DNA of 16,354 nucleotides from Pseudomonas sp. (lineage in GTDB: Bacteria > Pseudomonadota > Gammaproteobacteria > Pseudomonadales > Pseudomonadaceae). This document shows, one piece after another, positions 4,997 to 9,219 of this stretch (position 1 is its first letter; the number at the start of each line of letters is the position of its first letter). The notes under the pieces were generated by a model. The model was not told the origin of the DNA, made no database searches, and saw only the letters and a program-made list of their open reading frames with translations. Made by a program: the position numbers and the translations under genes. The stretch is taken from contig DQGF01000071.1 of the NCBI GenBank assembly GCA_003525045.1, positions 22,946 to 39,299 of the forward strand, written 5' to 3'.

Positions 4997-5641
4997 TCAA
5001 GCGCGCACAAATGGGTTCTCGCGCATCTCCTCGCCCAGGCGAGTGTCAGGACCATGCCCCGTCACCACCGTCGCTTCTTCATCGAGGGTATACAGCCGCT
5101 GCTTGATCGAGCGCACGATGGTCGCCTGATCGCCACCCCACAAATCCGTACGCCCTACTCCGCGCCGGAACAAGGTGTCACCGGCAATCAGCAATTTGGC
5201 TTCGGCAAACCAGAAACTCATGGAACCCGGGGTATGCCCCGGCGTGTGCAATGCGACGCCACAGCCGCAAGCCAGTTCTTCATCATCGGCCAACCAGCGA
5301 TCCGGCGACGGCACCGGCGTGTAGGGCACACCGAACATCTGGCATTGCATCTCCAGGTTGTCCCAGAGGAATTGATCTTCCTTGTGCAAATGCAGGGTCG
5401 CGCCGGTTTTCTCTTTCAACTGACCGGAGGCCAGGAAGTGATCCAGATGCGCGTGGGTGTGAATGATGCTGACGACCTTCAGGCCCAGGGCATCGAGGCG
5501 TGCCAGGATCAATTCATGATTGCCGCCCGGGTCGACCACGATGGCTTTTTTCGTGATCGGGTCGCCGATGATTGTGCAGTTGCACTGCAAGGGGCCGACG
5601 GGGAAGGTTTCGCGGATGAGGGCTGTATTCGGGGTTTGCAT
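4997..5641 (-). CDS. gloC: Metallo-beta-lactamase-fold hydrolase, glyoxalase II type (GloC/YcbL)
   Basis: A 214-residue MBL-fold enzyme with the full binuclear metal set: HTHAHLDH at 61-68, His136 in TPGHTPGS, Asp155 in AGDTLF and His196 in TGHGPDT. It lacks the C-terminal helical domain of classical GloB and has the length of E. coli YcbL (GloC, about 215 residues), which hydrolyses S-lactoylglutathione in methylglyoxal detoxification. A broader thioesterase role cannot be excluded. ATG 5641 is chosen because AGGA stands eight bases upstream and MQTPNTALIRETFPVGP suits the family; an in-frame reading from 5689 lacks support. It is divergent from the kinase operon across 104 bases. Confidence 0.88.
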   Translation of the reverse strand: MQTPNTALIRETFPVGPLQCNCTIIGDPITKKAIVVDPGGNHELILARLDALGLKVVSIIHTHAHLDHFLASGQLKEKTGATLHLHKEDQFLWDNLEMQCQMFGVPYTPVPSPDRWLADDEELACGCGVALHTPGHTPGSMSFWFAEAKLLIAGDTLFRRGVGRTDLWGGDQATIVRSIKQRLYTLDEEATVVTGHGPDTRLGEEMRENPFVRA

Positions 5642-5745
5642 GGGTTTAATCCTGATGCCAAGGCTGGGTACTGCGGTTGTGATCCGCAAAATTGATAGGT
5701 TATCCTCGCGCCGCGCCTATTTTGAAACAAGACGGCAGGAAGCCA
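5642..5745. promoter_or_regulatory. Divergent promoter region, gloC and kinase operon
   Basis: These 104 bases must carry the start signals for both directions. A short inverted repeat, TGCGG (5672-5676) and CCGCA (5684-5688) with a 7-base gap, lies near the middle. No convincing sigma-70 pair is visible. TTGTGA (5677-5682) with TTATCC (5700-5705) has 17-base spacing toward the triad but a poor -10. Confidence 0.35.
5737..5742 (+). promoter_or_regulatory. Ribosome binding site that decides the kinase start
   Basis: AGGAAG ends three bases before ATG 5746. It is too far (17 bases from AGGA) from the next ATG at 5758, and the upstream TTG at 5692 has no such site. This fixes the start at 5746. 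Confidence 0.7.
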
Positions 5746-7644
5746 ATGCCCCCTTCAATGGAACACGTGCTCGTCGATAAAAGCGTCCTCTTTCTGGACC
5801 CGGACATTATCAACCGCATTCGCGGCAAGAATGGTCTGCCCTTTATCGCCCACTCCGATCTTCTGGAGCTTCAGTCCCTGACAAAAGGACACGAGCAGGT
5901 CCACAAAAACGCTCGACAATTTTTCCAGCTTTTCGCCGGCCAGCCTTCGCGACCGCACCGCGCGCTCCCCAAAGGTACAGCACTGCGTCCCGGCGATTTA
6001 CTGGCCGAATGCGCTTTCGATGGCCAACCGATCTTCGCGCTCAAGCGAACGACGGCACCACAAGACCAGACCAAGTCGGATGACGCCGTCGACTTGTGCC
6101 GTCACTACGACCTGCTGTTACTGACTTGCGATGAGGCGCAACTCATTCAGTGCAAAGCCGCTGATGCCCGAGCCATACGCTGGGTCGGCCGCGCGCCGCT
6201 CATGCCTTTCGACCAGCCCAAGACGCCCCTCGCCACTGCCGATCGTCTTATCCAGAATAGAGGCACAATTGTCACAGAAGGTTCGGTGGTAACAACGTCA
6301 AGCGGCCGCCGATTGACACTTGGCAAGTCCATCAGCTCCGGTGGCGAAGGGACGATTTACGCCGTGGTAGGCAACGCTGAAGTGTGCAAGATTTATCACA
6401 CCGGAAAGCTCAGTATCCGGCGCCGCGAGAAGATCGAGCTCATGGTGACACGCCGTATCGTTGAGCCTGGTATTTGTTGGCCGACCGAACTGGTTTTCAA
6501 TGCTGATCAAGAGTTTGTTGGCTATGTGATGCCTCGAGCAGAAGGGAAAACCCTTCAGACCTCGGTATTCGTCAAACCGTTATTGGCGAAAACGTTCCCG
6601 CACTGGACGCGACGAGATCTGGTGAATGTCGCGATTGCGTTTCTGAAACAGGTGCAATACCTGCATTCGCTGAACATCATTGTGGGCGACATCAATCCCA
6701 TGAACTTGCTCGTCACTCCAGATAGCAACAAGGTCTGGATGGTCGATACAGACAGCTTTCAGATCGATCATTTTCCCTGCGAAGTTGGCACCGTGCCTTT
6801 CACCGCGCCTGAGATTCAGGGGAAAGAATATGGCAAATACCTGCGTACAAAAGATCACGAGCTGTTCGCCGTCGCCACCATGCTGTTCATGATCCTGCTG
6901 CCAGGCAAACCACCCTATTCTCAACAAGGTGGCGGAACGGCGTCCGACAACATCAGGAACATGAACTTCCCCTATCGATTCAAAAAGGACAGCGGCAAAG
7001 GCAAGGTAAGCGTCACCCCGGTGGGCACCTGGCAGAATATCTGGAGTCATTTGCCGTACCTGCTCAAAGAGGCGTTCAGCAACACATTCGAAGATAATCA
7101 GCGTCGACCGATCGGTGACTGGTTGACGCTACTGGCTCAGTACGGCGAAGAGTTGCGCAAGGGCAAGCATTCCGATGAGCTGTTCCCCCCCGCTTTTCGT
7201 ATCACCGACCCGGTTGAGGCTGTCTGCGGTAGCTGTAAAAAAACCTACACCGAATCCAAGGCCTGGCTTAAGAAAATGCAGGCTTCGGGTAAATCGACTC
7301 GATGCGCGGACTGTCAAAAGGCGTCCAAACTGAAGCACCTGGCCAGTGAAAGCCAAAAGAAAACCGAGCAGGCAGTGCAGCGTGTGGCGCCACCTCCAGC
7401 GGCCGCCATGCCTCGCCCCAACCCGCCGCCGGTACGTAACATGACAGCAACTGCACCTGTACCTAAACGCACCGTGCCTGCTTCTGCGCCAGCGCCTGCC
7501 CCCGTGCGCCAGACGCCGACAAAACCGCAGCAGCAACCTACTTCCGCCCGACCGCAACCGTACCGATCCGCGCCAGCACGCCCGCTCAACCAAGAGAGCA
7601 TCGTTGTGCGCTGGCTCAAACGACTCTTGAAGCGTTTTTTGTAA
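5746..7644 (+). CDS. PIN-like domain fused to Ser/Thr protein kinase with zinc ribbon (TerY-P/YegI-type)
   Basis: A 632-residue multidomain protein. Residues 6-147 read as a PIN-like nuclease: VLVDKSVLFL (Asp11), IAHSDLLELQSL (Glu41), a DDAVDLC segment (Asp112/113) and LLLLTCDEAQL (Asp129) fall where PIN domains place their metal-binding acids. The kinase spans about 190-470: loop SGGEGTIY (198-205), Lys215 in VCKIY, catalytic loop VGDINPMNLL (Asp315, Asn320), a DFG equivalent VDTDS (Asp334), and GTVPFTAPE before the C-lobe. Then come a zinc ribbon (Cys494, 497, 520, 523), a Pro/Ala-rich linker (547-612) and a basic amphipathic tail, VVRWLKRLLKRFL. Kinase and ribbon match the kinase of TerY-P/Yeg triads; the PIN assignment is by eye. 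It heads an operon with VWA and PP2C genes. GC is lower than in the flanking core genes. Confidence 0.88.
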   Translation: MPPSMEHVLVDKSVLFLDPDIINRIRGKNGLPFIAHSDLLELQSLTKGHEQVHKNARQFFQLFAGQPSRPHRALPKGTALRPGDLLAECAFDGQPIFALKRTTAPQDQTKSDDAVDLCRHYDLLLLTCDEAQLIQCKAADARAIRWVGRAPLMPFDQPKTPLATADRLIQNRGTIVTEGSVVTTSSGRRLTLGKSISSGGEGTIYAVVGNAEVCKIYHTGKLSIRRREKIELMVTRRIVEPGICWPTELVFNADQEFVGYVMPRAEGKTLQTSVFVKPLLAKTFPHWTRRDLVNVAIAFLKQVQYLHSLNIIVGDINPMNLLVTPDSNKVWMVDTDSFQIDHFPCEVGTVPFTAPEIQGKEYGKYLRTKDHELFAVATMLFMILLPGKPPYSQQGGGTASDNIRNMNFPYRFKKDSGKGKVSVTPVGTWQNIWSHLPYLLKEAFSNTFEDNQRRPIGDWLTLLAQYGEELRKGKHSDELFPPAFRITDPVEAVCGSCKKTYTESKAWLKKMQASGKSTRCADCQKASKLKHLASESQKKTEQAVQRVAPPPAAAMPRPNPPPVRNMTATAPVPKRTVPASAPAPAPVRQTPTKPQQQPTSARPQPYRSAPARPLNQESIVVRWLKRLLKRFL

Positions 7645-7668
7645 CGCTCAGCTCAAAAGGATAATCCC

Positions 7669-8343
7669 ATGCAAGAAGACTATCTCCTCCGTCAGGAAGA
7701 TCTGGCCGAAAACCCGACCACACGCGTGCCCGTGTGCCTCGTGCTGGACGTCAGCGGATCAATGGAAGGCGAGCCCATCGCGGAACTGCATTCCGGCGTT
7801 CAGATGTTTTTCGAGGCGATTCGTGACGATGAGGTGGCGCAATATGCCGCTGAAATCTGCATCGTGACCTTCGGCGGGACGGCGCAAAAAGTGCTGGATT
7901 TCAGCTCCATCAATCGTCAGGACGTCCCTCCGTTGGTGGCATCGGGCATGACACCGATGGGGCACGCCGTGAGCATCGCTTTGGACTTGCTGGAAGCACG
8001 CAAGGAAGATTATCAACGTGCCGGCGTTGATTATTTCCAGCCCTGGATGGTCCTAATGACCGATGGCGAACCGACAGATGATATTGGCGAGGCGACCGCT
8101 CGCGTGGCCAGCATGATCAGCAAACGCAAATTGACCGTTTTCCCGATCGCGATCGGTGCGGCGGCGAACTTACAGTCGCTGGCCCAGTTTTCTCCTACGC
8201 GCCCGCCCCTGCGCCTCAAAGGTTTGCACTTCAAAGCGTTCTTTGACTGGCTGAGCCGAAGTGTTTCGCGAGCGTCTCAATCGACACCTGGTGACGCGGT
8301 GGCGCTTGACATTAAAGGTATCGAAGCTTGGGCACAGGTCTGA
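7669..8343 (+). CDS. von Willebrand factor A domain protein (TerY/YegL-like)
   Basis: A 224-residue cytoplasmic protein that is almost entirely one VWA domain. The metal-ion-dependent adhesion site is complete: DVSGS at 27-31, Thr95 in SGMTPMG and Asp132 in LMTDGEPTDD. The length matches E. coli YegL (219) and TerY-type proteins. It has no signal peptide or membrane segment. In TerY-P triads such VWA proteins are predicted to be metal-binding adaptors between kinase, phosphatase and substrate; no enzymatic role is expected. ATG 7669 follows AAGGA by seven bases and lies 24 bases after the kinase stop. The PP2C gene starts three bases after its own stop, so the three proteins are probably made together and act in one complex. 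Confidence 0.92.
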   Translation: MQEDYLLRQEDLAENPTTRVPVCLVLDVSGSMEGEPIAELHSGVQMFFEAIRDDEVAQYAAEICIVTFGGTAQKVLDFSSINRQDVPPLVASGMTPMGHAVSIALDLLEARKEDYQRAGVDYFQPWMVLMTDGEPTDDIGEATARVASMISKRKLTVFPIAIGAAANLQSLAQFSPTRPPLRLKGLHFKAFFDWLSRSVSRASQSTPGDAVALDIKGIEAWAQV

Positions 8344-8346
8344 ATC

Positions 8347-9165
8347 ATGCCTGAGATCCCGGTAGACCTAAGCTGCAAAACGGCCTGCGCGTTTGTGGCA
8401 GGACGCTCGCACCTCAAGACTCAAACGCCTTGCCAGGACTATGTCGCGGCCAGAGAGTCCAACGAGGTGACCTGCATTTCATTGGCCGATGGGGCTGGCT
8501 CCAGAGCCAGATCCGAAATCGGCGCACACGTAGCGGTCACGGCTACCTTGGCCTTTGTCTGCAAAAACTTTGAAAGCCTGTGGCAAAACATGGACAAACA
8601 CAATGCGAAGGCAGCCCAGCGACTGGTTAATCGCTGCTTGGATGCGTTCAAACGCAAATCTGCAAAGCTCGGCGGCGATATCAACGACTTTGCCTGTACC
8701 TTGTCGTTCGTCGCTTACTCTCGCGGCCGCTACCTGGCAGGCCACTTGGGCGATGGCGTCATCGCAAGCGTTGATGCAGACGGACAACTTCAGGCCCTTT
8801 CTCATCCAGAAAATGGCGAGTTCGCCAATACCACCCTGTTTCTAACTGACCATAAAGCGGCGTCGCGGCTCAGGTTGTACCGTGGGCAAATCGAAGCCAA
8901 GACTGGCTTCGCGATCATGAGCGACGGCACCGCAGAAAGTCTCTATCACAAATCCAGCGGCGTCCCCGCCCCTGCGATCCAAAAATTGCTGGAGTGGAAT
9001 GCAACGTTACCCAGAAAAAAAATGAGGGAAGTGTTGGGTGACAACCTGCAACAGTCCATTGCCAGTAAAACCGGAGATGACTGCTCCATAGGCTTACTGT
9101 CGCTCCTGAAGCGCTCCATCGACGTGGGGCAGGCATCCGGAGTGACTGTTTCAGAGGAGAAATGA
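8347..9165 (+). CDS. PP2C-family protein Ser/Thr phosphatase (YegK/PphC-like)
   Basis: A 272-residue PP2C phosphatase. The metal-binding aspartates are visible: Asp48 in LADGAGS, Asp136 in GHLGDGVI, Asp193 in IMSDGTAESL and Asp244/245 in TGDDCSIG. The variant DGAGS (not DGMGG) and the early CQDY (29-32) are typical of the PP2C_2-like proteins of kinase/VWA triads, including E. coli YegK (PphC, 253 residues). It should remove phosphate from the triad's kinase and substrates in a Mn/Mg-dependent way. Its ATG is three bases from the VWA stop and lacks a strong ribosome site, which suggests translational coupling. The last 15 or so residues are probably disordered. Confidence 0.92.
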   Translation: MPEIPVDLSCKTACAFVAGRSHLKTQTPCQDYVAARESNEVTCISLADGAGSRARSEIGAHVAVTATLAFVCKNFESLWQNMDKHNAKAAQRLVNRCLDAFKRKSAKLGGDINDFACTLSFVAYSRGRYLAGHLGDGVIASVDADGQLQALSHPENGEFANTTLFLTDHKAASRLRLYRGQIEAKTGFAIMSDGTAESLYHKSSGVPAPAIQKLLEWNATLPRKKMREVLGDNLQQSIASKTGDDCSIGLLSLLKRSIDVGQASGVTVSEEK

Positions 9166-9202
9166 CCGAAATCCTTTGACGGCAAGGCCCACCTTGTTTC
9201 GG
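9166..9202. terminator. Weak hairpin between the convergent PP2C and luxR genes
   Basis: Immediately after the PP2C stop, CCGAAA (9166-9171) can pair with TTTCGG (9197-9202), and an inner hairpin CAAGG-CCCA-CCTTG occupies 9183-9196. There is no T run, so it is at best a weak bidirectional terminator or an mRNA end protector. Confidence 0.35.
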
Positions 9203-9219
9203 AGGTCTTCGAACGGCGA

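Follow-up and report, generated by a model that had tools for sequence, protein, structure and literature searches.

What does a nuclease-like domain do on the kinase of a phosphorylation switch, and does it still cut RNA? This question is raised by three genes in a 16,354-nucleotide stretch of Pseudomonas sp. DNA (contig DQGF01000071.1 of assembly GCA_003525045.1, positions 22,946 to 39,299 of the forward strand; here, the window), which encode a Ser/Thr kinase that begins with a PIN domain, a VWA protein and a PP2C phosphatase. A preliminary description of this locus had proposed that phosphorylation gates an RNase that shuts down translation on infection or stress. Our computational analysis suggests that the active site of the window PIN nuclease has probably been lost. 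We lean toward a TerY-P/Yeg-class switch in which the PIN domain has turned into a binding or regulatory part and the kinase is the output, likely serving as a stress or anti-phage alarm.

Results

Residues 1-150 of the window kinase were identified as a PIN domain by both a structure model and the family alignment, which bears out the earlier recognition of a PIN-like N-terminus of 147 residues. The window N-terminus gave no PIN match against Pfam and NCBIfam, and PIN_4 matched 41 of the 70 rows of family alignment A1. The subtype can be assigned to PhoH2, directly in the relatives L065, P0013 and P0082 and, for the window, through its alignment to them: the PhoH family of PHROG matches residues 16-185 of L065 (E 2.3e-9), and NF053827 matches P0082 (4.8e-5) and P0013 (0.0021), both far under its whole-protein cut-off. 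A chance PIN resemblance was considered and rejected. Protein searches with the N-terminal region of the window returned just 7 close proteins, and the same search from P0013 returned 10, every one an already known PIN-kinase. The kinase gave 756 homologues at E 0.001, and our analyses use the best 120 of these 756, among which P0008, P0111 and P0116 have no PIN region. The start of P0008 as annotated excludes the PIN domain, which an annotation error or a frame break may explain. The fusion of PIN and kinase had been called unusual, and the literature yielded no description of such an architecture; no PIN-kinase paper was evident from titles and the starts of abstracts, although Anantharaman 2012 or Gao 2020 could contain one.

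N-termini were aligned for 121 rows (the window, 117 of the 120 listed homologues and L004-L006), 75 of which carry the full acidic quartet. Five of the other 46 rows were set aside, namely, L004-L006, which are poorly aligned but have the acids by eye, and P0034 and P0112, which are gapped at the first position; 41 rows were thus classed as degenerate. E41, D43, K46, N110 and D111 are each present in 75/75 quartet rows and T12 in 70/75, compared to 9 (E41), 1 (D43), 2 (K46), 4 (N110), 1 (D111) and 9 (T12) of the 41 degenerate rows. Given that D43, K46, N110 and T12 played no part in sorting the rows, their loss counts as independent support. The window retains D11, E41 and D129 and has K12, Q43, T46, K110 and S111 at the remaining signature positions. 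The nuclease site had originally been placed at Asp11, Glu41, Asp112/113 and Asp129; the first, second and fourth of these are in register, but the third catalytic Asp of the family aligns with Ser111 of the window, and Asp112/113 sit 1 and 2 residues later. Among the nearest nine rows (the window, P0001-P0007 and P0009), D11 is conserved in 9/9, E41 in 7/9 and D129 in 8/9, and position 111 is acidic in 0/9, so the third acid fails outright as a conserved position and E41 and D129 vary, a partial lack of conservation that counts against the active site as first proposed. The substitutions (Lys at position 41 in P0005, P0007 and P. neuropathica, L008; Asn at 129 in P0009) lie in one clade, to which L008 was assigned by position and identity. 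With the nuclease signature lost, the proposed phosphorylation-gated RNase is an unlikely effector for the window copy; it is plausible for the family as a whole, given that most aligned rows retain the quartet.

In a tree built from just the kinase domain by a quick method with the Shimodaira-Hasegawa-like approximate likelihood ratio test (SH-aLRT) as its only support, degenerate PINs fall in a few clades. The fewest changes between the quartet and degenerate states numbered 5, compared to 29-40 in 20 shuffles, over 118 labelled rows (116 plus L008 and L065, the two labelled by eye); this count, obtained after setting rows aside, becomes 8 when L005, L006, P0034 and P0112 are counted as degenerate. 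Because this tree is unable to distinguish gain from loss, the direction was taken from the distant members and PhoH2-type relatives, which carry the signature and thereby point to loss. D11, D84, R101, Y121, W146 and F155 are retained in 41/41 degenerate rows, spanning several clades. The ratio of nonsynonymous to synonymous substitution rates (dN/dS), from the single genome pair of the window and L008, was 0.23 for the PIN domain, 0.14 for the kinase domain, 0.09 for VWA, 0.13 for PP2C, and 0.31 and 0.46 for the linkers, with the zinc ribbon not computable. The six retained residues and the dN/dS of 0.23 argue for a PIN domain maintained in a non-cutting role.

The catalytic Lys, Asp and Asn of the kinase are present in 121/121 kinases, and K215, D315, N320 and D334 are invariant in 49/49 rows of alignment A2, together with Cys 494, 497, 520 and 523, which confirmed the zinc ribbon noted earlier. 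A strict kinase-motif pattern was unmatched in 10/121 kinases, all of them degenerate-PIN rows; in nine, Ala replaces the Pro of GDINPxN with the Asp and Asn retained, and the tenth, P0075, does not match the VDxDS pattern. The window kinase ends in VVRWLKRLLKRFL, with a helix predicted at low confidence at residues 619-631 behind a disordered linker. In a survey of 124 kinase tails (the window, the 120 listed homologues and L004-L006), at least 5 bulky hydrophobic residues were found in the last 13 positions of 121, and Phe or Trp was found among the last four residues of 115. Basic residues outnumber acidic ones in the tails, 249 to 36, and bulky residues are scarce over the 40 positions before each tail (mean of 0.11 versus 0.54). 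Given this family-wide hydrophobic and basic tail, and given that YegI is stated to be membrane-bound in excerpts of PMC13232886, a membrane tether is likely, and the amphipathic helix probably anchors the kinase at the inner membrane. Variations on this layout were also seen. By eye, transmembrane-like C-terminal segments replace the amphipathic tail in some relatives, and P0016, P0023, P0046 and P0103, which belong to one degenerate-PIN clade, have a short C-terminal tail of the G-F-F type. A PIN-kinase subgroup (P0082, P0095, P0097, P0099, P0105, P0106 and others) carries Sel1 repeats (PF08238), which in P0082 precede the PIN domain.

The three genes are co-directional, with gaps of 24 bp between kinase and VWA and 3 bp between VWA and PP2C, and their products match Pkinase (PF00069, E 3.6e-8), VWA (PF00092, 4e-10) and PP2C_2 (PF13672, 6.9e-48) in Pfam, in agreement with the tight packing described before (Table 1). 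The metal ion-dependent adhesion site (MIDAS) of the VWA protein is complete, as had been claimed, with DVSGS, T95 and MTDG filling the DxSxS, T, D pattern, and the set is likewise complete in 6/6 further loci checked (L004-L009). The TerY model of PADLOC gave a partial match to the window VWA (E 0.027). A misread kinase start codon was excluded, since the ribosome site is consistent with the ATG at 5746, and frame damage was excluded because all three reading frames are open. An Rfam scan at gathering scores gave no match, and promoter and terminator scans scored no better than shuffles.

Table 1. Features of the kinase/VWA/PP2C locus, in window coordinates
Feature	Position	Strand	Basis
Insertion, approximate extent by comparison with genomes whose flanking metallo-beta-lactamase-fold and MalT-LuxR genes are adjacent	5663..9219		Comparative; exact ends unread
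Ribosome-binding-like AGGAAG preceding ATG 5746	5737..5742	+	By eye
Kinase gene (PIN-kinase, 632 aa)	5746..7644	+	Open reading frame; Pkinase match
PhoH2-type PIN domain, residues 1-150, signature mostly lost	5746..6195	+	Alignment; model
Ser/Thr kinase domain, about residues 190-475	6313..7170	+	K215, D315, N320, D334 kept
Zinc ribbon and following helix, about residues 485-545	7198..7380	+	C494, C497, C520, C523; model
Pro/Ala-rich linker, residues 561-618, predicted disordered	7426..7599	+	Per-residue model confidence (pLDDT) under 50
Amphipathic basic C-terminal helix, residues 619-631, likely membrane tether	7600..7638	+	Low-confidence model; family tails
VWA protein gene, MIDAS complete	7669..8343	+	Open reading frame; Pfam VWA match; motif check
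PP2C phosphatase gene, metal-site motifs present	8347..9165	+	Open reading frame; Pfam PP2C_2 match; motif check

The operon represents about 3.5 kb of DNA inserted between ordinary chromosomal genes, given that the two flanking genes, for a metallo-beta-lactamase-fold protein and for a MalT-LuxR regulator (both by Pfam), are adjacent, 48-120 bp apart, in 7/29 other relatives examined at the MalT locus, among them the genome whose MalT gene is closest. The flanks also include an OmpA-like gene (by eye), and P. neuropathica has the same triad at the same place. Among 18 longer Pseudomonas stretches, 2 have an empty site and 7 carry other genes over 2.1-6.8 kb; because of this other cargo, the intergenic site at 5663-9219 resembles a variable spot. 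The metallo-beta-lactamase-fold gene was not found in 9 of the 18. No clear junction or target duplication was readable at the insertion ends, and the triad itself, consisting of three genes, is without an integrase gene. The kinase is rare. A full-length kinase match was found in 1/57 and 1/194 related genomes, each time the window's own; a further 2 and 8 genomes, respectively, gave weaker, partial matches. Across the phylum, P0013 at E 1e-30 matched 2/398 genomes, the window's own and one partial, and a single-protein search of genome contigs gave one locus. A PADLOC comparison of ten flanking window proteins gave us no credible defence gene, and the surroundings of the operon do not form a defence island; the matches seen were of the OmpA-like protein to ZorB (8.6e-16, OmpA/MotB-type) and of the LuxR end to CARF3 (1.6e-8, weak).

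The viral contig L065 carries a quartet-bearing PIN-kinase with VWA and PP2C genes after tail and lysozyme-like genes, and this triad adjoins a type VI retron reverse transcriptase (RT_VI, 2.1e-76) and helix-turn-helix (HTH) gene (HTH_VI, 2e-34). In this arrangement (L065:7965-14502), the retron genes lie on the strand opposite the triad; the contig's tail genes resemble those of a gene transfer agent. On the viral contig L070 (5796-10959), an integrase-like gene and AbiEi/AbiEii (4.2e-55 and 7.1e-58) are followed by a VWA gene paired with a kinase gene that lacks the PIN, an arrangement in which the kinase module may pair with other effectors. In L066, a Yeg-like kinase and a PP2C are seen by eye amid phage-like genes, and plasmid copies exist. 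Viral scans with the single proteins P0013 and P0008 found no relative; alignment-based scans gave two loci each, recovering contig IMGVR 3300048579_000191 three times, and 4 phage records gave partial matches to P0013 and 3 to the VWA. One unannotated faecal phage record, MT836238.1, has at 5431-7767 a VWA match of 38% identity and a kinase-region match of 27% and would be another phage-borne module of the kinase/VWA kind. According to excerpts of the sources, a PIN-PhoH mutant gives larger phage bursts (PMC5490813), and PIN systems occur in defence (PMC13092281). The anti-phage role raised at the outset is suggested by relatives beside retron VI and AbiE and not by the window's own flanks; the relatives are the sole basis of a circumstantial link for the family, drawn from two loci (L065 and L070) with chance neighbourhood uncontrolled.

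Three further neighbourhoods are recorded here. A Photobacterium plasmid (L007:4278-11123) carries genes for VWA, PP2C and a short kinase that lacks the PIN, and farther downstream come radical SAM and HD-domain genes; a Lysinibacillus plasmid (L006:9526-10182) has a fourth gene past the triad with a DnaJ-like C-terminal domain (E 9.4e-4, under the cut-off); and in Fusobacterium (L005:4430-5335) a possible regulator lies upstream of the PIN-kinase, encoded by a gene with an HTH and, by eye, another PIN that seems partly degenerate.

Discussion

We propose that the PIN domain, having lost its active site and kept its fold along with D84, R101, Y121, W146 and F155, binds a ligand, perhaps RNA or a partner protein, and would control the kinase rather than cut RNA. 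The kinase would then be the output of the switch, which PP2C would reset by dephosphorylation, like PphC for YegI, and the VWA protein could act as a metal-dependent adaptor that recruits the substrate or builds the complex. The kinase may be kept at the inner membrane by its C-terminal amphipathic helix, and the whole would likely serve as an accessory stress or anti-phage alarm. The domains, the loss of the active site, the retained residues and the insertion come from the computation itself; the binding of a ligand, the direction of control, the attachment to the membrane and the defence role are inferred from it. Several results weigh against this proposal. Three of the four catalytic acids survive in the window PIN, and position 113, acidic in 8/9 nearest rows, could be a shifted third ligand. 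The dN/dS of the PIN domain, above those of kinase, VWA and PP2C, is also compatible with slow relaxation. The tail helix block has a pLDDT of only 39-51, and the last 17 codons have a dN/dS of 0.63 between the window and L008, the weakest constraint of the parts measured, which speaks against a sequence-specific role of the tail and not against general amphipathicity. The lack of a credited defence gene in the flanks belongs here as well.

The strongest competing explanation, which we hold to be a real possibility if the lesser one, is an ordinary TerY-P/Yeg stress switch for metal or envelope stress, unrelated to phage, with PIN as an RNA-binding accessory. The make-up of the triad and the absence of a defence island fit it, and the conditions for yegI and pphC expression are given as not known in excerpts of PMC13232886; however, it sits poorly with the viral contig on which an intact triad neighbours a type VI retron, with the kinase-VWA pair found next to AbiE and an integrase-like gene, and with the plasmid copies and the top PADLOC match of the window kinase (PD-T4-6, 4.3e-8, kinase domain only). 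We consider it unlikely that the window PIN remains an RNase in which Asp113 (or 112), one or two residues farther on at the start of the helix, has become the third metal ligand and the cutting of RNA is gated by phosphorylation. The surviving acids, the acidic position 113 and the majority of quartet-bearing relatives favor this idea, but the window has none of T12, D43, K46, N110 and D111, Lys41 and Asn129 occur in the same clade, and position 113 alternates between Asp and Glu, unlike the Asp111 that is invariant in quartet-bearing rows. That the PIN domain is a functionless vestige drifting on a working kinase is quite improbable, since its raised dN/dS and the PIN-less annotation of the close homologue P0008, itself possibly an annotation error or frame break, are set against clear purifying selection and the same six residues in every degenerate row from several clades.

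Beyond the window, we tentatively put forward, as a conjecture that may well prove wrong, a widespread unnamed family of membrane-tethered PIN-kinases acting, inside kinase/VWA/PP2C operons, as single-chain kinase-nuclease anti-phage alarms on phage-like elements and plasmids. In intact members RNA cleavage would be phosphorylation-gated, and several lineages, the window included, would now be pseudo-nuclease sensors that drive the kinase. The fusion in the window joins an RNase-type domain straight to the kinase in a triad of still unsettled purpose, and the presence of quartet-bearing and degenerate PINs in one family offers a natural experiment on the mode of the TerY-P/Yeg switch, in which comparing the two would separate RNA cutting, RNA sensing and phosphorylation alone. 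The C-terminal tail common to the family makes the location testable.

Among known systems, the locus is TerY-P/Yeg-like, as first suggested. As described in excerpts of PMC11090510, the TerY-P triad (Anantharaman 2012) combines a TerY-like VWA with PP2C and a Ser/Thr kinase that has a C-terminal zinc ribbon; the window likewise has a VWA with MIDAS, a PP2C and a zinc-ribbon kinase, but its VWA matches the TerY model only in part (E 0.027), and its kinase differs in the N-terminal PIN, the Pro-rich linker and the hydrophobic C-terminal tail. The antiphage TerY-P-like module (PMC11090510, citing Gao 2020) has the same three-gene kinase/VWA/PP2C make-up, but its STK_OB kinase ends in an OB fold, whereas the window kinase ends in a zinc ribbon and a tail modelled as disordered. 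The STK_OB model covers residues 288-363 of the window kinase only, and no OB fold was seen at its C-terminus in this match or in the structure model, a dedicated fold search not having been made. Excerpts of PMC7159879 place a zinc-ribbon kinase beside PP2C and VWA in actinobacteria. E. coli YegI/PphC(YegK)/YegL has a related kinase region and a PP2C partner (PMC13232886); two annotated yegI records align to 47% of P0013 at 27.3% and 26.6% identity, with PIN outside the match. By eye, parts of a Yeg-like kinase in L009 resemble transmembrane segments and a helix-hairpin-helix, and one record carries a helix-hairpin-helix name. PD-T4-6 is alike in the kinase domain, to which the window adds PIN, VWA and PP2C. 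PhoH2 (PIN-PhoH) has the same PIN subtype but a C-terminal PhoH ATPase where PIN-kinases have Pkinase, and the window PIN is without the signature. IRE1 and RNase L likewise join a kinase-type domain and an RNase on one chain, but with an unrelated nuclease, and in the window protein the degenerate part is the nuclease and not the kinase; if our wider conjecture is true, PIN-kinases would be a bacterial counterpart of IRE1/RNase L with the roles reversed.

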